Shown here piece by piece: positions 13,721-25,345 of a DNA stretch of 35,872 nt (the first letter of the stretch is position 1; the number at the start of each line of letters is the position of its first letter). This stretch comes from a virus. A program made the position numbers and the translations under genes. The DNA lies in the IMG/VR virus record IMGVR_UViG_3300045977_000085, positions 1 through 35,872 of that record. One strand, given 5' to 3'. Under the pieces are notes generated by a model. It did not search any database and was not told the DNA's origin. It saw only the letters and a list, made by a program, of their open reading frames with translations.

Positions 13721-14851
13721 CTACGCGGGGACATTTCGCGTCCCACTTGTACCAGTAGTGAGCCCGCCCCTTCGAGTGGCAGCGTCTTCTGCAATGAGAC
13801 GCCAACTATGAGGCCAGCGCCAGAGGTTCTCCGCCAGAGACCATCGACGCTCGACGACGCGCAGCAGCCGCCTGGCCTCGATCCGCCGCGTGGCCGGCGA
13901 CGCCAGGTACGCGGCGATCGCCGTCTCCCACTCGTCGGCCGTCTCCGCCAGGCGGCCGGTCACGCCGTGCTCGATCAGGTGCCCGTAGACCGTCGGCGTC
14001 GCGACGACGGCGGCGCCGGCCAGCGCGGCCTCATACGCTTTGATCGGGCTCTTACAGCGGTTGAAGCGGTCGTCGGCGACCGCGCAGCAGGCGACGTCGA
14101 CCTCTTTGAGCCCGGCCGGGTACCGCTCCAACGCCAGCCACGGCAGCACGGTCAGCCGGTCGGCCGGCACGGCGGCGGCGACGATCGGCGGCAGGTAGCC
14201 CTGGACGACGAAGCGGACAGCCGGGAATCGCACCGCGATCCGCTCCCAGGCCGCCGCCATCTCCCTGACGTCGTCGTCCGGCCGCTTGCCGCCGGCCCAG
14301 CCGACCGTCGGAGGCACCAGCTGGCGCGTGGCGGCCTGGAGAACGCTCCGGAACCACGGAACGTCAATGGCGTTGGGGACGACGTGGACGGGCCTGGTGG
14401 TGAAGCTACGGACGACCGTTGCTAATCGCCGCGTCGAGACCGTCACGCCGTCGCACTGCTGCATCGCCCAAATCCGCTCGTACCGCTCGGCCGTCAGCTC
14501 GGCCAGCGTCTTGCCCTCAGTCCAGCCGAGCGCGGCCGTTCGCGCGTCGATCGCGGCCGTGAAGATGTCGTCGTCGGCATCGTAGACCACGAAGCGCCCG
14601 GCCCGCCGGATCATGGCGAACCAGGCCTCAGCAACGTGCCGGTCCTGCGGCCGCCAGGACATGCGGGGTAGGACGTAGCCGTCGAAGGCCGGGGCGATCA
14701 GGCCGATGCCGGCCGCGTCCTTGAAGTCCCAGCCGGCGCCGTAGCCAGCACGCTGGAGCGCGGTGAACGGCCAGAACACGCGCCAGAGTGACGGGCCCGT
14801 CTGGTCGGCCACCAACGCCAGCATCGCCGGCCCCGCGATGCGTTCAGCCAT
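13721..14851 (-). CDS. Glycosyltransferase, GT-B fold, GT4-like
   Basis: A 376-residue protein. ATG 14851 is chosen because it overlaps the preceding stop by 8 bases and the frame further upstream is low-complexity Arg-rich shadow. The N-terminal half contains WRVFWPFTALQRAGYGAGW and VVYDADDDIFTAAID; the C-terminal half has VHVVPNAIDVPWF, VGWAGGKRPDDD and the GT4 donor-site region SPIKAYEAALAGAAVVATP followed by LIEHGVTGRLA. GT4 enzymes transfer a sugar from a nucleotide-sugar or similar donor; the acceptor is unknown. Possibilities are modified phage DNA, a virion protein, or host surface glycan altered in lysogens. It belongs to the cassette between portal and protease. Confidence 0.85.
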   Translation of the reverse strand: MAERIAGPAMLALVADQTGPSLWRVFWPFTALQRAGYGAGWDFKDAAGIGLIAPAFDGYVLPRMSWRPQDRHVAEAWFAMIRRAGRFVVYDADDDIFTAAIDARTAALGWTEGKTLAELTAERYERIWAMQQCDGVTVSTRRLATVVRSFTTRPVHVVPNAIDVPWFRSVLQAATRQLVPPTVGWAGGKRPDDDVREMAAAWERIAVRFPAVRFVVQGYLPPIVAAAVPADRLTVLPWLALERYPAGLKEVDVACCAVADDRFNRCKSPIKAYEAALAGAAVVATPTVYGHLIEHGVTGRLAETADEWETAIAAYLASPATRRIEARRLLRVVERRWSLAENLWRWPHSWRLIAEDAATRRGGLTTGTSGTRNVPA

Positions 14852-15695
14852 ATCGAGCCCGCGCAGTGTCGCGTAGGTACGTCGCCCAGCAGACGCCGCA
14901 CCAGACGCCCGGACGACGCTGCTCGGCACACGGAAGCGCCAGCAGCCAGCCGGGCAGCGGATGCACGCGTGCGCACGGCTCGCGATTCGGACGCGAGCGC
15001 GTGCGCTGGCACTCGCTCGGCGACGGAGCCGAGCGCGGCGCGTGGTACGGGTACCCGTCCGCGAGAAAGTCGCGAAACCGGCGCGTCCGTAGCGGATGGC
15101 GCAGTTTGCGAAGCGCCTTCGACTCAATCTGGCGTATCCGTTCGCGGGTGACACCGAACTCTCGCCCGATCTCTTCATACGTCATTGGCGCGCTACCGTC
15201 GACACCGTAGCGAAGCTGCATGACGCGGCGCTCACGCGGCGTGAGCGTGTCGAGCGCGTCGCGCATGACCGACGACAACACCCGCTGCTCGCCGGCCTCA
15301 GCGACGTCGACAACCGAGTTGACCTCACCGCCAAGCGCCTGCACGTCGTCGCGATAGAGTGGAACCTCCAGGCGGCGCGTCTCGCCACAATCGGCGAGCG
15401 CGTCGATCTCGCCGGGAAACAGCACGTCCTCCGGCACGCCGAGTGCGAGCGCGATCTGCCAGCGCGCGACGGCGCCGATGTGCCGCAGCTGCTCGGCGTG
15501 CCCGGTGGTCGTGCTGCTGATGCCGGCCTGGCGTGCCAGCTCGGCACGGGACCAGCCTTTCGCTTCACGCGCTCGACGGACCCGCCAGTTGAACGGAGCG
15601 ACCTGAAAGCCGATGATCGGCGCGTCGTCGCTCCATTCCAGAACGTGGAGATCGCCTTCGTACTCGACATGCGCTAGCGCACGGTTGTCGCGCAT
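14844..15695 (-). CDS. XRE-type HTH fused to sigma-70 region 4
   Basis: A 283-residue protein with a clear GGAGG before ATG 15695. Residues about 35-95 form an XRE/Cro helix-turn-helix (FNWRVRRAREAKGWSRAELA, RWQIALALGVPEDVLFPGE). Residues about 143-205 are almost consensus primary-sigma region 4: LDTLTPRERRVMQLRYGVDG, MTYEEIGREFGVTRERIRQI and ESKALRKLRHPLR. Region 2, which melts the -10, is absent, so this is not a complete sigma factor. The tail (206-283) is basic and ends with a WCGVCW motif. Region 4 binds -35 DNA and the RNA polymerase beta flap, so it may redirect or block host polymerase. It is co-transcribed with two glycosyltransferases and overlaps genes on both sides. Confidence 0.85.
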   Translation of the reverse strand: MRDNRALAHVEYEGDLHVLEWSDDAPIIGFQVAPFNWRVRRAREAKGWSRAELARQAGISSTTTGHAEQLRHIGAVARWQIALALGVPEDVLFPGEIDALADCGETRRLEVPLYRDDVQALGGEVNSVVDVAEAGEQRVLSSVMRDALDTLTPRERRVMQLRYGVDGSAPMTYEEIGREFGVTRERIRQIESKALRKLRHPLRTRRFRDFLADGYPYHAPRSAPSPSECQRTRSRPNREPCARVHPLPGWLLALPCAEQRRPGVWCGVCWATYLRDTARARYG

Positions 15696-15823
15696 CGACA
15701 GACCTCCGGGACGTAGCCGCAGCCGACACATGTCGGCCGGTCAGAGCCCGGGTTCAACAGCGTGACCTCGCGCCAGCATCGCGAGCAGGTTTCGGCCGGC
15801 GGGTCGTTCGTCGTCGCGGTCAT
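15674..15823 (-). CDS. Zinc-ribbon miniprotein (49 aa)
   Basis: A 49-residue frame beginning at ATG 15823, overlapping the GT2 stop as ATGA. Its end overlaps the XRE-sigma start by 22 bases. It contains CSRCW, then about 17 residues on CVGCGYVPEVCRC, giving CxxC...CxxC plus CxC, enough for one or two zinc ions. Translational coupling on both sides argues that it is real. It could be an adaptor for the adjacent transferases or regulator. Confidence 0.75.
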   Translation of the reverse strand: MTATTNDPPAETCSRCWREVTLLNPGSDRPTCVGCGYVPEVCRCATTVR

Positions 15824-16464
15824 CGGTCCACCCTGTGCGTCACGGTGACGCGGTCGAGGAAGGCGTAGCGCGCGCCGGCCGCCAGCCAGCGCGCGATCGT
15901 CTCCCAGTCGGCGGTACGGTCGTTGCCGAAAACGTAGAGCGAGTGGCGGAGCAGCTCGGCGCGGTAGAGCACGTTGGTGATCTGGCCGCAGTGTGGCGGC
16001 TCGGTCCCGATGACCAGCCGGCGGCCGGGATCGTCGCGCCACCAGAGCTCCGCTTTCGAGTACGCCAGGTCGGCGCCTCGGGCCTCGAGGAGCTCGACCA
16101 GCGCGGCGCAGTGGTCGGGCGTTATCCGCTCGTCGTCGGCCAGCCACATCTGATAGGCCCCACGCGCCAGGAACATGCCGACGGTCAGCGGCGCGGCGGC
16201 GTAGGAGTCGCGGAGGATGCCGGTCCAGTGCTGGCCGAGCTCGACGAAGCGGAGCGAGACGTCGTCGGCCGGATCGACCGGGCACGGCCGGTTGTACCGC
16301 GTCGCCACGATCCAGCGCACGAGGTCGCCGTCCTGGCCATCCGAGACGACGACGTGCTCGAGCGGCCGGTACGTCTGCTGCCTGACGTTCTCGATCGCCT
16401 CGGCCAGCAGGGCGTGGCGCTGCCAGGTCGGCGTGATGACCGAGACGAGCGGCCGGCCGCTCAT
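15820..16464 (-). CDS. Glycosyltransferase family 2 (GT-A fold)
   Basis: A 214-residue protein starting at ATG 16464 with ATGA overlap to the portal stop. The GT2 opening is unmistakable: PLVSVITPTWQRHALLAEAI, ENVRQQTYRPLEHVVVSDGQ. The metal/donor-binding acidic motif appears as YQMWLADDERITPDH (about 105-118), and a downstream GNDRTADWETIARWL segment resembles the catalytic-base region (ED/ETD). It is a compact soluble domain without membrane anchors. Sugar and acceptor are unknown. It opens the cassette inserted downstream of portal. Confidence 0.9.
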   Translation of the reverse strand: MSGRPLVSVITPTWQRHALLAEAIENVRQQTYRPLEHVVVSDGQDGDLVRWIVATRYNRPCPVDPADDVSLRFVELGQHWTGILRDSYAAAPLTVGMFLARGAYQMWLADDERITPDHCAALVELLEARGADLAYSKAELWWRDDPGRRLVIGTEPPHCGQITNVLYRAELLRHSLYVFGNDRTADWETIARWLAAGARYAFLDRVTVTHRVDR

Positions 16465-18492: not shown

Positions 18493-19761
18493 TCAGTAGA
18501 CGTAGACCTGCCGCTGGTCCTTCACGAGCAGCTCGGTGATCGCCCAGACCAGCGCATCCAGGCGATCCGGCGACGTGCCGCTCTCCGGCGTCCACGAGGT
18601 CAACTGGTCCTCCAGCTCCGTAAACATCTCGCCATGCGACACGTTGCCCTGCTCGTAGAGCGCCGCCACTGGCTGCGCGCGGATCGCCTTGCCGCGCGAG
18701 GCGTGGATCGCCTTGTACGGGATACGACGCCGCACGGTCTTGATCGTCGCGCCGACCATCTCGCCGCCGTTGTTGACCTCCGCGACGACGAGATCCGCCG
18801 AGAACTCGTCGAACGCCGCGACGACGCGGCGCGCCCAGCCGTCCGGCGAGAGCCGGCACGAGCGGTCAGCCAGGACGTAGCCGCGGCCGTCAGCGCCGAG
18901 CCCGGCCACGATGATGCCGGTCTCGTCGGCGTCCTCCGACGACGTCGCGGCCGGATCGACCGCCACGACCACCCGGACCAGGTCGGCCGGCGGCGGCGCC
19001 CGGAGGATCGACTCATGCCGCCAGAGCGCGCCCGGGACGTCGACCAGCAGCGCGCCGTGGATCTCCTGACGCCCGAGCCGGGTGCCCTCGTAGCGCGCCA
19101 GGATCTGCTCCCGGAACGCGGCCGGCAGGTGCTCGAGGTTCTCGTACGTCGAGCCGGTCGTCAGGTGCGTGGTCGGAGACGCCACCAGGTCGCGCACCAG
19201 CTTCGTCGGGCGCGGCGTCGTCGTGACGACGGCCCTAGGGTCCGATCCCAGGCGGAGCCCGAACTGGAGCATATCCCAGGTCGCGGGATACGACCAGGCG
19301 GCCAGCTCGTCACAGTAGGCGCGGTGGTGCTGCGGCCCGCGTAGCCGATCGGGCTCGTCGGCCGAGAACAGCTTGACGCGCGTCCCGTTCGTCATGACCA
19401 GCTCGCCGAGCGAGCGATTCCAGGTCCGGACCTCGGCCGGCGCCAGGGCCGAAAGCAGGCCGGAGGCGCCCTCAACGCAGGTGTCGCGGGCGTCGGCGTA
19501 GGTCGGCGCGACGATCGCCAGGCGGGCGCCCGGCTGCGCCCGGCCGTAGGCGGCGAGGTCGCTGGTGCCGGCCAGCGTTTTGCCCCAGCCGCGCCCGGTC
19601 AGGACTAGCCAGGTCCGCCAGTCGCCGGCGGGTGTGACCTGCGACGGCCGCAACGTCCGCGCGGCGCCCGGCGACAGCGCGGAGTCGCGGCGCGCCAGGA
19701 CCGACCGCACGGCCTGGCCGGCCGCGAACGCGACGACGGCCGACTCAGCCGCGACCGGCAC
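18493..19761 (-). CDS. terL: Terminase large subunit
   Basis: A 422-residue packaging motor with GTG start 19761 overlapping the small-terminase stop by 17 bases. ATPase: Walker A GRGWGKT at residues 56-62; Walker B with Asp151 and catalytic Glu152 in HHRAYCDELAAW; a TTTPRPT coupling motif near 180-186. Nuclease: Asp269 in VAVDPAATSS, Glu328 in VVAEVNNGGE, and Asp399/Asp402 in SPDRLDALVWA. The residue set is complete, so the enzyme should be active. It would cut concatemers and pump DNA through the portal encoded next. Confidence 0.97.
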   Translation of the reverse strand: MPVAAESAVVAFAAGQAVRSVLARRDSALSPGAARTLRPSQVTPAGDWRTWLVLTGRGWGKTLAGTSDLAAYGRAQPGARLAIVAPTYADARDTCVEGASGLLSALAPAEVRTWNRSLGELVMTNGTRVKLFSADEPDRLRGPQHHRAYCDELAAWSYPATWDMLQFGLRLGSDPRAVVTTTPRPTKLVRDLVASPTTHLTTGSTYENLEHLPAAFREQILARYEGTRLGRQEIHGALLVDVPGALWRHESILRAPPPADLVRVVVAVDPAATSSEDADETGIIVAGLGADGRGYVLADRSCRLSPDGWARRVVAAFDEFSADLVVAEVNNGGEMVGATIKTVRRRIPYKAIHASRGKAIRAQPVAALYEQGNVSHGEMFTELEDQLTSWTPESGTSPDRLDALVWAITELLVKDQRQVYVY

Positions 19762-20158
19762 GGCCGTGCTCCTGAATCAGTCTCGACGCCTCGGCGACGG
19801 CCTCGCGCTCTTCGTCCGCTGAAAGGCCGTGCTCGCGCGCCAGCTCCCGGATCGTCGTCAGCAGCTCCAGGCGGTCTCGCCGGCCCCAGTCCTCGTGACG
19901 CCGGCGCTCGAGCCACCAGGCGGCTGCCCGCCAGTCGTTGCTGTTGATCGCCTGGCGGATCGTCACGACGGCGCGCACCTCGGCCGAGGCCTCGGCCATT
20001 AAGACCGCGTCCCGAAACGTCCCGAAACGCAGGTAGACGCTAATCTTGGATCGGGCGACGCCGGCCGCCTGGAACGCCGCCGTCCGGGTCGCTCCGGCCC
20101 GCAGCGCGTCGAGGATGATCCGCTCGACGGCGGGTGTGAGCTTGGTCGGCCGAGCCAT
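19745..20158 (-). CDS. Terminase small subunit (putative)
   Basis: A 137-residue protein starting with ATG 20158, overlapping the glycosyltransferase stop by one base (TAATG). The N-terminal HTH is typical of small terminases: RPTKLTPAVERIILDALRAG, TRTAAFQAAGVARSKISVYL. A helical segment with AINSNDWRAAAWWLERRRHE follows, found in many TerS proteins. The C-terminal helix is acidic. It would recognise the packaging site and stimulate the adjacent large subunit. Confidence 0.9.
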   Translation of the reverse strand: MARPTKLTPAVERIILDALRAGATRTAAFQAAGVARSKISVYLRFGTFRDAVLMAEASAEVRAVVTIRQAINSNDWRAAAWWLERRRHEDWGRRDRLELLTTIRELAREHGLSADEEREAVAEASRLIQEHGRAGRG

Positions 20159-21000
20159 TAGCGCACCTCGACCAGGCGCATGCCGTACTCATTCGGGCCG
20201 GCCGCGATCTCCAGGCCGGGCTTCCGGATCAGCCGGTTCGACTTGAAGCGGCGGTAGTCGACCTGGTGCTGCCATCGGCCCCATCGGCGCGTTACCTTGA
20301 CCACATCGGGGTGTTGTAACCGGAGCGACTGCGCCATCAGGAGACGGCCGTCCCGGCCGTCAGCGAGCTTGTAGAGCTCCTCGGTGTTCCCGCCGCTCAC
20401 CTTCATGGTCGCCATTTTCTTCTGGAGGAAGGCCAGGAAGAGCACGGTGCACCAGCCGTCTTTGAGCGCCCGGAGTGCGAGGTCGGTATCCTCGTTGTAC
20501 CGGCCCCGCCATCGGTACGGGAGATCGTTGCGGATCAGGATGCACGAATACACCCTCGTGTTGAACCTCATCGGCAGCCGGTAGGGCCGCCGCCTCGGCA
20601 TGAAGAAATCATACTCAGGCCCCGCTAGCGCCACGTTCTCGTACCGATCTACGAAATCCTCCATGCACCGAAAGCCCGTACCCGACCGCAGATAATGACG
20701 CTGGTTCCGCGTGAAATAGGACAGTCCGTGAATGTTGTCGTCAAGAATCCAGTGGCGCGCGTGGCCCGCGCTCATCGCATCCTCCCAGCACCAGTTCCGC
20801 GCTGGGACGGAGCCCTGCCCCAGGTTGCTGAACGGGAGGGTAAGGATCTTCGCCGGATCGACACCAGCAGCGTACTCGTCGTACTCTTGCGGCTCAATGA
20901 CGATCCGGTACGGCACCCGCATCTTCTCGAGCATCCGGCTCGTCAGCCTCGAGTCCGCCCGGCCCTTCGAGATGACGTAGAGCGGGTACCTAAGGTTCAT
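20158..21000 (-). CDS. TAGT-type (TET-associated, GREB1-like) glycosyltransferase
   Basis: A 280-residue protein; ATG 21000 overlaps the ParB-like stop by 11 bases. The opening YPLYVISKGRADSRLTSRML, YRIVIEPQEYDEYAAGVDPA and LPFSNLGQGSVPARNWCWED match the TAGT family, predicted by Iyer and colleagues (2013) to glycosylate oxidised pyrimidines in phage DNA. A DxD-like metal site is visible in HWILDDNIHGLSYF (about 90-103) and a second acidic motif in YNEDTDLALRALKDGW. The C-terminal region has the family-like RLQHPDVVKVTRRWGRWQH. Usually a TET/JBP dioxygenase supplies the substrate; I find none in the circle. Family call from memory, activity inferred. Confidence 0.85.
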   Translation of the reverse strand: MNLRYPLYVISKGRADSRLTSRMLEKMRVPYRIVIEPQEYDEYAAGVDPAKILTLPFSNLGQGSVPARNWCWEDAMSAGHARHWILDDNIHGLSYFTRNQRHYLRSGTGFRCMEDFVDRYENVALAGPEYDFFMPRRRPYRLPMRFNTRVYSCILIRNDLPYRWRGRYNEDTDLALRALKDGWCTVLFLAFLQKKMATMKVSGGNTEELYKLADGRDGRLLMAQSLRLQHPDVVKVTRRWGRWQHQVDYRRFKSNRLIRKPGLEIAAGPNEYGMRLVEVR

Positions 21001-21655
21001 CTACCGTCTCTACCGTCTCTTCAGCGACCTCATACAAGGTACCCCGGGGTTGCTTCCCGAACCAGACGAACGTACGCCCGGTGAGATCCTGGCCCATGAG
21101 TCGCCCGAACGCGGCCAGCTCGTCGCCATCCTGAAGATAGACCCGGATCGTGAACGCCGCCCCCGCCGTCATGTCCTCATGCTCGAACCCCGGCATCCCC
21201 GCCCACTCCGCCATCGGGTCGTCCGGCGCCTCCAGGCCGCGATCCGTCGCGATGAACTGCACCAGCCGTTGCACCACGTCGTCGTCGGCCGTCACCGACC
21301 CGAGCAGGTCGCGCAGCGCGTCGGCGTCGGTCTCGGCCATCGCTGAGAGCGGGTCGAGCGTCGCTAAGACCAGCCGCTCCTCACCGTCGGCGAGATCGAC
21401 GTAGCCGACGGGGATCGTCGGCTCGCCTCGCTCGACGGCGAGCTGGACGCGGAGGTGGCCGTCCACGATCCGGCCGCTGCGCTCATTCACGATGACGGAC
21501 TGGACGACGCCGATCTCCGAGAGCACGCCGGCCAGGGCGTCGGCCTGGGCTTTCGGGTGAACGCGCCAGTTCGCCGGGTTCGCCGAGAGCGTTCTCGGAT
21601 CGACGTCGGCATGTCTGACGATACGATTCGCCCAGCGGCGCGGCGATGTCGCCAT
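20990..21655 (-). CDS. ParB-like nuclease-domain protein
   Basis: A 221-residue protein. ATG 21655 is preferred because it overlaps the upstream stop (TGATG) and has AGGGG upstream. Residues about 20-90 form a ParB/Srx fold: NPANWRVHPKAQADALAGVL, GVVQSVIVNERSGRIVDGHL, RVQLAVERGEPTIPVGYVDL, with the GRIVDGHLR phosphate-binding motif intact. An acidic helical part and a C-terminal domain follow (TIRVYLQDGDELAAFGRLMG...RTFVWFGKQPRGTL). In phages such proteins neighbour DNA methylases and base-modification genes. It is co-translated with the TAGT enzyme and may direct it to DNA. Confidence 0.85.
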   Translation of the reverse strand: MATSPRRWANRIVRHADVDPRTLSANPANWRVHPKAQADALAGVLSEIGVVQSVIVNERSGRIVDGHLRVQLAVERGEPTIPVGYVDLADGEERLVLATLDPLSAMAETDADALRDLLGSVTADDDVVQRLVQFIATDRGLEAPDDPMAEWAGMPGFEHEDMTAGAAFTIRVYLQDGDELAAFGRLMGQDLTGRTFVWFGKQPRGTLYEVAEETVETVDEP

Positions 21656-22113
21656 CACGACCCCTGGAGGCGCGAGTTTACCCCGAGCGAAGCCGAGGGG
21701 GCCTCGGCGATCCACTCGTACCGGCCGGCCCGCTGAAGCACCTGGCCGGCCGCGAGCGCTGGTCCGGCGACGGCATTGGCGACGACGACGTGCGTCGGGT
21801 CGTCGAGCGACGTCGGCGTCGCCGATGTTCCCGCCACGGAGTGGAGCAGGTTGACGGCGGCCAGCAGGTCGGCGAGCGCCGCGAGCGCGTCATCGGCCTC
21901 GTGCTCCGCCCGCTCGGCGCGGCCCTGGGCCCGGAGCATGTCCTCGCTCGCCGCCGCGGCCACGTTCGCCACTGTCGTGACGGCCGCCTTGAGATGAACG
22001 AGGGCCTGCTCCAACTGGCAATGCGAGCACAGGCCGGGCCCGCCACATCGAGCGACAGCACCGTCCGGCAGGGGTGTCACCCAGCCGTGGCTTCGGATTC
22101 GGTCAGTCGCCAT
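21655..22113 (-). CDS. Cys-containing phage protein with helical core
   Basis: A 152-residue protein starting at ATG 22113, overlapping the previous stop by one base. The N-terminus WVTPLPDGAVARCGGPGLCSHCQLEQ holds a C-x5-CxxC possible zinc site of a kind I have seen at the start of small phage proteins. Residues 35-100 are a long Ala-rich helix (SEDMLRAQGRAERAEHEADD). Function unknown. Its position before the ParB-like gene places it in the early/middle block. Confidence 0.7.
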   Translation of the reverse strand: MATDRIRSHGWVTPLPDGAVARCGGPGLCSHCQLEQALVHLKAAVTTVANVAAAASEDMLRAQGRAERAEHEADDALAALADLLAAVNLLHSVAGTSATPTSLDDPTHVVVANAVAGPALAAGQVLQRAGRYEWIAEAPSASLGVNSRLQGS

Positions 22114-23641: not shown

Positions 23642-23937
23642 CGCGCCAGCACCGTTTGGACGAACGGCCAGTCAGACGGCTTCCAGACGTAGGCCTCAAT
23701 CCCACAGGCGCGGAAGTCGTCGAGCCAGGCCGATTGATCGGCGGTCGGGTCACGGTCCTCCCGCTTCAGCTCGGCGACGACCACGCGCGGCCGGCGCACG
23801 AGAATGAGATCGGGAAAGCCGGCCGCCGAACCGATCGACGTTCGGGTGTGGTACGCCCGCCAGCCGAGCAGGCGCGCGGCGTCGTAGACCTGCTGCTGCC
23901 ACGACGCCTCGGACTGGAGCTTGAGCTGCTCGGTCAC
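23509..23937 (-). CDS. VRR-NUC domain nuclease
   Basis: A 142-residue protein with GTG 23937 overlapping the methyltransferase stop (GTGA). Residues about 8-97 are the VRR-NUC fold of the PD-(D/E)XK superfamily: EASWQQQVYDAARLLGWRAY, TSIGSAAGFPDLILVRRPRV, VVAELKREDRDPTADQSAWL. The catalytic Asp lies in GFPDLIL and Glu/Lys in ELK. It is a probable Holliday-junction or flap endonuclease of recombination or packaging. The natural domain ends near WPFVQTVLAR; the last 45 residues are Arg/Ser/Ala-rich, overlap the next gene for 133 bases and may reflect a lost stop or frameshift. Confidence 0.85.
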   Translation of the reverse strand: MTEQLKLQSEASWQQQVYDAARLLGWRAYHTRTSIGSAAGFPDLILVRRPRVVVAELKREDRDPTADQSAWLDDFRACGIEAYVWKPSDWPFVQTVLARCARPRSDRAGPAAAGAPSSTSAFRTTRSRGAATAHAPGRAPSS

Positions 23938-24824
23938 AACGTCGCCTCTTGCCGCCGGTAGGCCCGGAGCGGTGCGCCCTTACGCCGCGCGCGGAACAGG
24001 CGAAGGCGGCAGGCGAGGGTGCAGGTCTCGGCATCCGCGCGCCGCCCTGGATCGAGCAAAGCGAAACAGCTCGGACACCGTTTCGGCAGCAGGTCCTGAC
24101 GGCCGTTCCGTTTCGCTTCGCCGACCTCCTGCCGCCGGTAGAGGGCGTCGAAGTCGATGTGAGCCGGGCCGTCGTGGCGGTAGACGAGGTAGACGGCGCC
24201 GTTGGACCTCGGCACCCGCTCGGCCTTCCAGCGGCCGGACGACATCAGCCCGGCCGTCCTGACCGTCGAGAGCTTCGTGTAGAGCGGCACGCCGAGCGCC
24301 TGAGCGATCCAGGCCGACTGGTCGAGGAACCGGCCGCCGTGATGGTGCTCGGTCACCTTGACGATGACGCCGGCCGACGAGACGCGCCACGCCTCACGGG
24401 CGCCGGCCTCGATCAGCTCCCGGAGAGCCGACGTCGTCCGGATCGACCCGTACCGCTGGGTCATGATCCCGGAGACGCCGCCGTCCGCGACGTGCGGCGG
24501 ATCGTAGACCACCAGGTCGTACGATCCGGCCGCCAGGCCCGTCGCCGTGAAGTCGAGGTGCAGGTCCGTCGCGGCTCGCGGGTCGAGGTTGTTCGACGTC
24601 ACCGCCAGGCCCGGCGGCAGCGGGGCTCTCCAGAAGAGGCCGGCGGCGTAGGTCAGGTCGAGCGCCGTCGCGGCGTCGCGGAACGCGAGATGCGCGAGCC
24701 GGCGGCAGGCCTCGGCCGAGCGGATCCGCATGTAGCTCAGCGTCGTCGTCTGTACCAGCGGGTCGGGCGGGCGGATCAGCCGGCGGCCCGTTGAGACGTG
24801 GGCCTCCCGCGCCTCGTCTAGCAT
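23934..24824 (-). CDS. DPPH-motif DNA methyltransferase with C-terminal zinc ribbon
   Basis: A 296-residue protein. ATG 24824 overlaps the XRE-gene stop by 7 bases; codons upstream are shadow. It has a divergent SAM-site region (ALDLTYAAGLFWR, residues 54-66), an acidic SNNLDPRAATDLHLDF segment, and the catalytic motif IV DPPH at 108-111 in YDLVVYDPPHVADGG. REAWRVSSAGVIVKV and SSGRWKAERVPRSNGAVYLV strands follow. Residues 248-275 form a CxxC-x14-CxxxC zinc ribbon (C250, C253, C268, C272) with an Arg-rich tail. DPPH resembles amino-methyltransferases (N4-cytosine/N6-adenine class); target base unknown. Self-protection or a modification step is plausible. Confidence 0.8.
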   Translation of the reverse strand: MLDEAREAHVSTGRRLIRPPDPLVQTTTLSYMRIRSAEACRRLAHLAFRDAATALDLTYAAGLFWRAPLPPGLAVTSNNLDPRAATDLHLDFTATGLAAGSYDLVVYDPPHVADGGVSGIMTQRYGSIRTTSALRELIEAGAREAWRVSSAGVIVKVTEHHHGGRFLDQSAWIAQALGVPLYTKLSTVRTAGLMSSGRWKAERVPRSNGAVYLVYRHDGPAHIDFDALYRRQEVGEAKRNGRQDLLPKRCPSCFALLDPGRRADAETCTLACRLRLFRARRKGAPLRAYRRQEATL

Positions 24825-25345
24825 AGCTTGCCCCGAGCTTGCCGAGGGGCGGCTCCCGCTCGACGGAGCTCGACGACCTCGCGGGCCAGCCGCCGGACCT
24901 CGGCCCGTTGCAGGTCGAGTTTCTCCTCGAGCACCAAGACGCTGCCCTCCCAAAGCCGGACGTAGGGTTCCCAGCCGCCGGCCGCGACGACCGATTCCGG
25001 CAGCAGGCCGGCCTCGGCGAGCAGCGCATCCAGCTCGGCCTCGTCGGACGAAACGGCCGCCCAGAGCCGGCGAATGACGTCCCGACTCGGGCGCATGGCC
25101 GGCCCGGCCGGCGTCTGGGTCCCCACGAAAGCCGGGTGCCCTTCGGGCGGCTTTCGTGGGATCCCCTGCCGCTCGAGGCGGTTGACGTAGGCCGGGTCAA
25201 TCTCAGCGGCGTAGGCCAGGCTGTGCTGACTCAGGCCGGCAGCGTCACGGAGCCGGCGCAGCCGTCGAGCGAACGGCAGGCCGTCCGGCACCGCAGCCGC
25301 GCCGGCTGATCTCGTGCGCTCCCGCTCGGCCATCCGTATCACCAT
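24818..25345 (-). CDS. XRE-family regulator with palindromic insert
   Basis: A 175-residue protein with ATG 25345 just after the upstream stop. Residues about 23-56 begin an XRE HTH (GLPFARRLRRLRDAAGLSQH, SLAYAAEIDPAYVNRLER). This is interrupted by about 25 residues (QGIPRKPPEGHPAFVGTQ...) before the expected continuation RPSRDVIRRLWAAV. The insert matches a perfect 13-bp inverted repeat in the DNA (25122-25160). The C-terminal part has an LLAEAGLLPES helix typical of XRE regulators and a coiled coil (VLVLEEKLDLQRAEVRRLAR). Likely a transcription regulator of the middle genes. Confidence 0.8.
   Translation of the reverse strand: MVIRMAERERTRSAGAAAVPDGLPFARRLRRLRDAAGLSQHSLAYAAEIDPAYVNRLERQGIPRKPPEGHPAFVGTQTPAGPAMRPSRDVIRRLWAAVSSDEAELDALLAEAGLLPESVVAAGGWEPYVRLWEGSVLVLEEKLDLQRAEVRRLAREVVELRRAGAAPRQARGKLC
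25122..25160. repeat. Perfect 13-bp inverted repeat inside the XRE gene
   Basis: The arms CCCACGAAAGCCG (25122-25134) and CGGCTTTCGTGGG (25148-25160) are perfect reverse complements separated by 13 bases that include a C-TTCG-G tetraloop-like centre. The 39 bases are exactly 13 codons in frame. They fall between HTH recognition helix and the rest of the domain, as expected of a palindromic element inserted into a gene. Confidence 0.85.

Follow-up and report, generated by a model that had tools for sequence, protein, structure and literature searches.

The window analysed here is the whole stretch of 35,872 nucleotides of IMG/VR record IMGVR_UViG_3300045977_000085. Its two ends share an exact repeat of 127 nt, so that in effect it amounts to a 35,745-bp circle. 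The window also encodes a serine integrase, portal and capsid genes and a GH25 lysin; it is a temperate phage and, judging by the end repeat, apparently complete. The features that concern us are the following:

20158..21000, minus strand: TAGT glycosyltransferase, 280 aa, with a GT-A fold (Pfam PF20691, alignments, AlphaFold2 and GT-A structure matches)
20990..21655, minus strand: ParB-G protein, 221 aa from the ATG at 21655, which is abutted by the upstream gene
21230..21634, minus strand: ParB/Srx-fold domain of ParB-G, approximate limits (Foldseek/VIA match to ParB-CDP 6sdk; homology to methyltransferase-fused ParB)
21047..21241, minus strand: G domain of ParB-G, of the W-x-GMPEF...IWYP type
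19745..20158, minus strand: terminase small subunit, terS (phrog_4102, 1.9e-19)
18493..19761, minus strand: terminase large subunit, terL (PF03237/PF17289)
15820..16464, minus strand: second glycosyltransferase, GT2-like, in the head-gene region between the portal and major capsid genes (PF00535, 6.4e-10)
13721..15178, minus strand: third glycosyltransferase, GT4-like, between the portal and capsid genes (PF13692, 2.1e-9)
23934..24953, minus strand: DNA-methyltransferase-like open reading frame with a DPPH motif (phrog_954, 7e-11 over 70 residues only, a weak match)

The open reading frame list starts the ParB-G gene at an earlier GTG, at 21715; most likely the start is the ATG at 21655. At the junctions, the ParB-G stop and the TAGT start overlap by 11 nt and the TAGT stop and the terS start by 1 nt, which confirms the gene order given in a preliminary description of this DNA (TAGT overlapping a ParB-like gene, with terminase directly after), and because of these overlaps the three genes look translationally coupled. 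Nor is the TAGT-terS-terL arrangement an accident of assembly, since the same order is repeated on an independent contig of 4,987 bp (L235), whose terS and terL are 100% identical to those of the window and which carries a TAGT fragment just upstream. A terminase-like gene lies within three genes downstream of TAGT in 80 of 153 loci. The location is therefore a common one, as the preliminary description would have it; its further suggestion, that the modification guards or marks packaged DNA, finds no counterpart in our results, where nothing shows a link to packaging. Counting TAGT, the GT2-like gene and the GT4-like gene, three glycosyltransferase genes are found in this one 35.7-kb phage.

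The identification of the 20158-21000 product as a TAGT was borne out by the Pfam search, in which PF20691 (curated cut-off 27.5 bits) matched it at 146.1 bits and 1.7e-42 over profile positions 1-205 of 205, by the PHROG search (phrog_842, 5e-39) and by its GT-A model. The motifs previously pointed out, YPLYVISKGRADSRLTSRML, DDN (as LDDN) and YNEDTDLALRAL, can all be read in the translation of the 280-aa open reading frame. Its conserved motifs are D87-D88 (LDDN) and E170-D171 (NED), and in an alignment of 58 TAGT sequences D87, D88 and D171 are invariant and E170 is nearly so; by analogy with GT2 enzymes, these acidic motifs would serve as metal ligand or base. The AlphaFold2 model (pLDDT 92.6, pTM 0.90) lies nearest to GT2-, GT27- and GT13-type GT-A entries in Foldseek and VIA-align, with Z values of 13-15 (maximum 14.8) and an rmsd of 3-5 A. 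This agrees with a published account that places the T6 TAGT beside GT2 and gives the model of the T6 enzyme a GT-A fold (PMC13216743). Among solved structures, the substrates of those closest in fold are sugars, peptides and teichoic acid. No nucleic-acid glycosyltransferase stood in the structure-match lists, an absence of little weight because sequence searches of the PDB, whether with the single TAGT sequence or with a profile, found no solved TAGT. The preliminary description had looked to a structure search to place the enzyme; the GT-A fold is confirmed in this way, and families are not discriminated, the nearest solved GT-A enzymes being generic. In base composition the gene is typical of coding frames in the window genome (GC3 0.84, with GC2 low at 0.43), and its overall GC of 0.626, the lowest among 16 window genes checked, hints at a separate acquisition.

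Starting from the ParB-like protein of the window, profile walks met a partner at 77 of 81 TAGT loci. We rejected ParB as a universal partner of TAGT, since the match was often to the C-terminal domain alone, a domain for which we coined the label G. It comprises about 65 residues at the C-terminus of ParB-G, with the pattern W-x-GMPEF...I-x-VHF...F-A-x-L...IWYP, and it stands alone, behind a ParB domain or fused to TAGT. A profile built without the window sequence recovered the window's G domain at 5e-12 among 650 window open reading frames, even though this copy belongs to the more divergent members. Of 173 dereplicated loci, 165 have G adjoining TAGT or fused to it, namely as a separate gene with ParB (95), as a separate gene without ParB (46) or as a fusion (24); at the other eight it lies elsewhere in the locus (three), was not seen (three, one of which is the TET-type Nonlabens TAGT) or falls at a contig edge (two). 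On a FastTree tree, the G-TAGT fusion accounts for 12-13 changes, with at least seven gains or losses forced by well-supported branches, and the presence of ParB for about 18-20; roughly 40% of TAGT loci have no ParB domain. When viral sequences were scanned with the G alignment alone, all 77 newly numbered loci among the best 80 matches listed carry a TAGT (at least six of the 77 come from contigs already in the locus set), and no exception to the pairing was seen among them. In most of them G ends where TAGT starts, and in five 0.8-1.6 kb lies between. G is thus a dedicated partner domain of TAGT, as its near-universal adjacency and repeated fusion show. The ParB-like partner of the preliminary description does have a ParB fold; the constant partner, however, is the G domain behind it. 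Against Pfam and NCBIfam, G gave no family above cut-off and against the PDB chance-level matches only, and it is the poorly modelled part of the ParB-G model (pLDDT 84.9 overall, 56-88 by block in G).

The N-terminal domain of ParB-G (20990-21655) matches PHROG ParB/DNA-methyltransferase families and, at 7e-13, a Spo0J profile. In the model, residues 28-162 adopt the ParB fold, with ParB-CDP 6sdk matching at Z 13.0 over 126 residues in Foldseek/VIA. The ParB alignment ends at residue 162 in a 241-aa numbering of this 221-aa protein, and the C-terminus is the G domain. Scanning viral sequences with the window's ParB domain alone yielded 13 loci. One of them, L319, is a further ParB-G/TAGT pair, and in six others (L317, L318, L320-L323) the ParB domain is fused to a DPPY-motif protein. 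The ParB domain of L317, a methyltransferase-type protein truncated by the edge of its contig, shares 81% identity with the window's over 102 residues, and the ParB domains of L318 and L320-L323 share 50-64%; the methyltransferase part of L318 is PF01555 (3.5e-17). In two more loci, L315 and L316, a C5-cytosine methyltransferase (PF00145, 3e-52 and 1e-51) sits between ParB and terS, where the window has TAGT, and the surrounding genes are those of sister phages, with identities to the window of 49-50% for terS, 51-53% for terL and 65-68% for ParB. The terminase-adjacent slot of TAGT is thus held by DNA methyltransferases in the sister phages. ParB-domain DNA methyltransferases of the phrog_498 type accordingly resemble the window in their ParB domain (up to 81% identical) and in their slot upstream of terS and terL, and differ in that their catalytic part is a methyltransferase, whereas in or beside the ParB-G gene there is no methyltransferase catalytic domain, but G and TAGT instead. 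That the same ParB domain and the same slot serve DNA-modifying enzymes (the METHYLTRANSFERASE swap) is the strongest reason to consider DNA as the substrate. The 'DNA methylase' of Stenotrophomonas phage QH16 was rejected as an example of the swap, although it looked like a ParB-methyltransferase: it is only 243 aa long, and its methyltransferase-like tail is short.

The preliminary description had recognised neither a TET/JBP enzyme nor a hydroxymethylase in the circle of 35.7 kb. Our searches of the window agree with this: Tet_JBP PF12851, a profile made locally from three TET proteins of phages, PF00303 (the thymidylate-synthase superfamily, including dCMP hydroxymethylase) and PF00145 (C5-cytosine methyltransferase) all found no match, and in the scanned subset of window open reading frames there was likewise none to PF11440/PF09198, the GT-B alpha- and beta-glucosyltransferases. 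As positive controls, PF12851 found the TET proteins of Nonlabens phage P12024L (2.8e-29) and of L025, and PF00303 found the T6 hydroxymethylase gene beside the T6 TAGT. The same two profiles found nothing in 66 larger viral records with a G-type TAGT (45 plus 21, fragments included), neither TET nor a thymidylate synthase or hydroxymethylase, and PF00145 matched in five of 48. In 34 of 35 whole bacterial genomes that carry G-TAGT, isolates and MAGs from many phyla, there is no TET homologue; in the remaining one, Winogradskyella (L205), the TET adjoins a separate, distant TAGT. Over the flanks of 179 dereplicated TAGT loci, a TET profile matched at L025, L205 and Nonlabens only. The lack of a base-hydroxylating enzyme is therefore general to the G-type subfamily and not special to the window phage. 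Some larger phages, T4-like ones among them, do have PF00303 genes (phiAS5, henriette, Kuja, PTm1). These genes were rejected as T6-type hydroxymethylases, since at the substrate-deciding position they have Asn, as in thymidylate synthase, and the T6 enzyme has Asp; as Asn is compatible with a dUMP hydroxymethylase, they may still be of that kind, above all the one of Kuja.

From these comparisons we consider it likely that ParB-G and TAGT form a DNA glycosyltransferase module encoded by the phage, with DNA as its polymer acceptor. DNA is better supported as the substrate than before, because of the methyltransferase swap at the same locus and because of the cluster at L025, where the order is TET, amino acid:DNA transferase (PF18724, 3.6e-21), P-loop kinase-like gene (below cut-off), G and TAGT. 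In the proposed mechanism TAGT, with its family, fold and DD and ED motifs as observed, would catalyse the transfer as the GT-A subunit, taking the sugar from a nucleotide sugar, presumably a UDP-sugar, while G would hold or present the acceptor to it. The ParB-fold domain, which by homology and positional swap appears to be an optional DNA-directing module common to phage DNA methyltransferases, may load or target the DNA. Together, ParB-G and TAGT would modify the phage DNA after replication and so protect it from host nucleases, like the DNA methyltransferases with which they are interchangeable. The acceptor would be a canonical base, used as it is, or else a group provided by an unrecognised enzyme. 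It is not attributable to a known TET/JBP, hydroxymethylase or C5-methyltransferase of the window phage, and with no known acceptor-making enzyme the pathway has either a missing step or an unprecedented one.

The unprecedented step would be direct glycosylation, a sub-case of the DNA-module explanation with a definite acceptor: TAGT and G put the sugar on an unmodified DNA base, for example on an exocyclic amine, and no oxidase is needed. We give this a minority chance. It would account for the blank counts among the 66 viral records, obtained with positive controls, and for the rarity of C5 methyltransferases and of host TET homologues, and the cassette occupies the slot of methyltransferases, which themselves act on canonical bases. 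The lack of a recurrent accessory enzyme, together with hosts without TET, makes it a serious option alongside an unrecognised acceptor-maker. Against it, many of the viral records are fragments, L025 and L205 do pair with TET, and we know of no enzyme that glycosylates an unmodified DNA base with a nucleotide sugar as donor; the nearest precedent is the ADP-ribosylation of DNA bases by DarT. The same minority chance holds for a reading in which ParB-G and TAGT are self-sufficient on an ordinary base without prior hydroxymethylation, ParB choosing the sites. The pair would then do with a sugar what a DNA methyltransferase does with a methyl group, and many environmental phages would carry it.

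The missing step, a phage gene that hydroxylates or activates the base before TAGT glycosylates it, seems to us a comparably tentative proposal. Candidates may be radical SAM enzymes, atypical oxygenases, PAPS-reductase-like proteins or the DPPH methyltransferase-like protein. At L113 (665-1708) a radical-SAM gene (PF04055, 2.8e-21) stands between G and TAGT. At L296 (1-1637) a distant TAGT, 28% identical to that of the window, lies between a terminase and a gene that is radical-SAM/SPL-like by eye and has no Pfam match, possibly another route to the acceptor. SAM methyltransferases are found between or beside G and TAGT at L053, L136, L168 and L179. A phage that has the product and no visible enzyme is known, since the DNA of Krischvirus SAP contains glucosylated hmC though no hydroxymethylase or glycosyltransferase gene was detected (PMC13390438). 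Each candidate gene, however, occurs in at most about five of the 179 loci, so that no single hidden enzyme accounts for the family, and the window itself offers only the methyltransferase-like open reading frame at 23934-24953, whose product has no Pfam match and whose part in any TAGT pathway is speculative.

Rather than DNA, the target could be a virion or terminase protein, with the ParB domain and the methyltransferase swap reflecting a shared genomic hotspot only. The solved GT-A relatives work on proteins and glycans, TAGT lies immediately ahead of terminase, and the GT2- and GT4-like genes lie between portal and capsid; their enzymes may glycosylate virion proteins or extend a DNA-linked sugar, both being predictions, and with two further glycosyltransferases near the head genes the glycosylation of another target in the window phage is plausible. 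For TAGT itself we hold a non-DNA target to be unlikely, because G-TAGT is also found in replication-type neighbourhoods without terminase and in the TET/ADDT cluster of L025, and because the methyltransferases share the ParB domain itself, beyond the location. A modified base supplied by the host, one of the options of the preliminary description, is very improbable, as 34 of the 35 host genomes lack TET and bacteria are not, to our knowledge, known to have 5hmC or 5hmU as a standing modification.

The window TAGT has known relatives. In two published accounts, the T-even TAGT is credited with adding the second glucose to alpha-glucosyl-hmC (PMC13216743, PMC13390438), which speaks for the proposed module. 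The T6/T2 enzyme (beta-glucosyl-HMC-alpha-glucosyltransferase) belongs to the same PF20691 and shares the GT-A fold in the published T6 model (PMC13216743). It differs in scoring only 39 bits to PF20691, in escaping the G-type family profile, and in its setting, where a dCMP hydroxymethylase adjoins TAGT, an alpha-GT is present and no G domain was seen. The TET-TAGT-methyltransferase cluster of Nonlabens phage P12024L is likewise of the same family (23% identity), with clustered DNA modification genes, but there TET adjoins TAGT, a G domain is lacking, and in the tree its TAGT falls outside the G-type set (support 76, long branches). These T-type TAGTs, of T6 and Nonlabens, are too distant from the G-type for their function to be directly transferable. 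The TAGT family, and TAGTs without alpha- or beta-GT, were already known; PMC13216743 counts such solitary TAGTs in 288 of 753 phage genomes and flags them as unexplained. The window TAGT is a member of that class, and the passages on it there contain no G domain, ParB link, methyltransferase swap or statement of missing acceptor enzymes (PMC13216743).

In the open literature searched, we found no link between ParB and a glycosyltransferase, and no earlier description of the G domain, the near-obligate G-TAGT pairing or the ParB-linked methyltransferase swap. A 2013 paper by Iyer and colleagues reportedly predicted TET-linked glycosyltransferases and may have noted part of these findings. For the unexplained solitary class, the results supply a partner domain that defines it, connect it with DNA methyltransferases and state which enzymes are missing. 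At least 600 matching stretches were returned by the first scan of one viral collection, and if DNA is the target, the modification is common; a DNA-targeting G-TAGT would then bear on phage defence and counter-defence and on enzyme tools for DNA labelling, and G-TAGT genomes are small enough for a two-gene reconstitution.

Several other genes accompany G-TAGT, counted by clustering and, where there was no Pfam match, named by eye. SDR epimerase/decarboxylase-type genes lie near nine loci (one member checked, PF01370), UDP-glucose-dehydrogenase-like genes near four and extra glycosyltransferase-like genes near five; such sugar-nucleotide genes speak in favour of the proposed glycosyltransferase module. 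Two G-TAGT fusions (L020:9286-11022 and L044:9644-11284) end in a uracil-DNA-glycosylase-like domain that scores 0.0094 and 1e-4, respectively, below the Pfam cut-off. In Rhodovulum euryhalinum (L200:8307-9793) two genes precede G-TAGT, the first with a start that is PAPS-reductase-like by eye. An unassigned gene of about 276 aa lies directly upstream of a fused G-TAGT at L184:4478-5314, L190:1253-2083, L213:8511-9341 and L187:7749-9476; the L187 copy has an additional N-terminal domain fused to it, which resembles a separate gene, L184:2782-3630, that is GT-like by eye. In the window, finally, positions 286-1358 hold a diverged tandem duplication, its two copies 72-80% identical and spaced by about 733 nt, and positions 979-1050 an inverted repeat with 36-nt arms.
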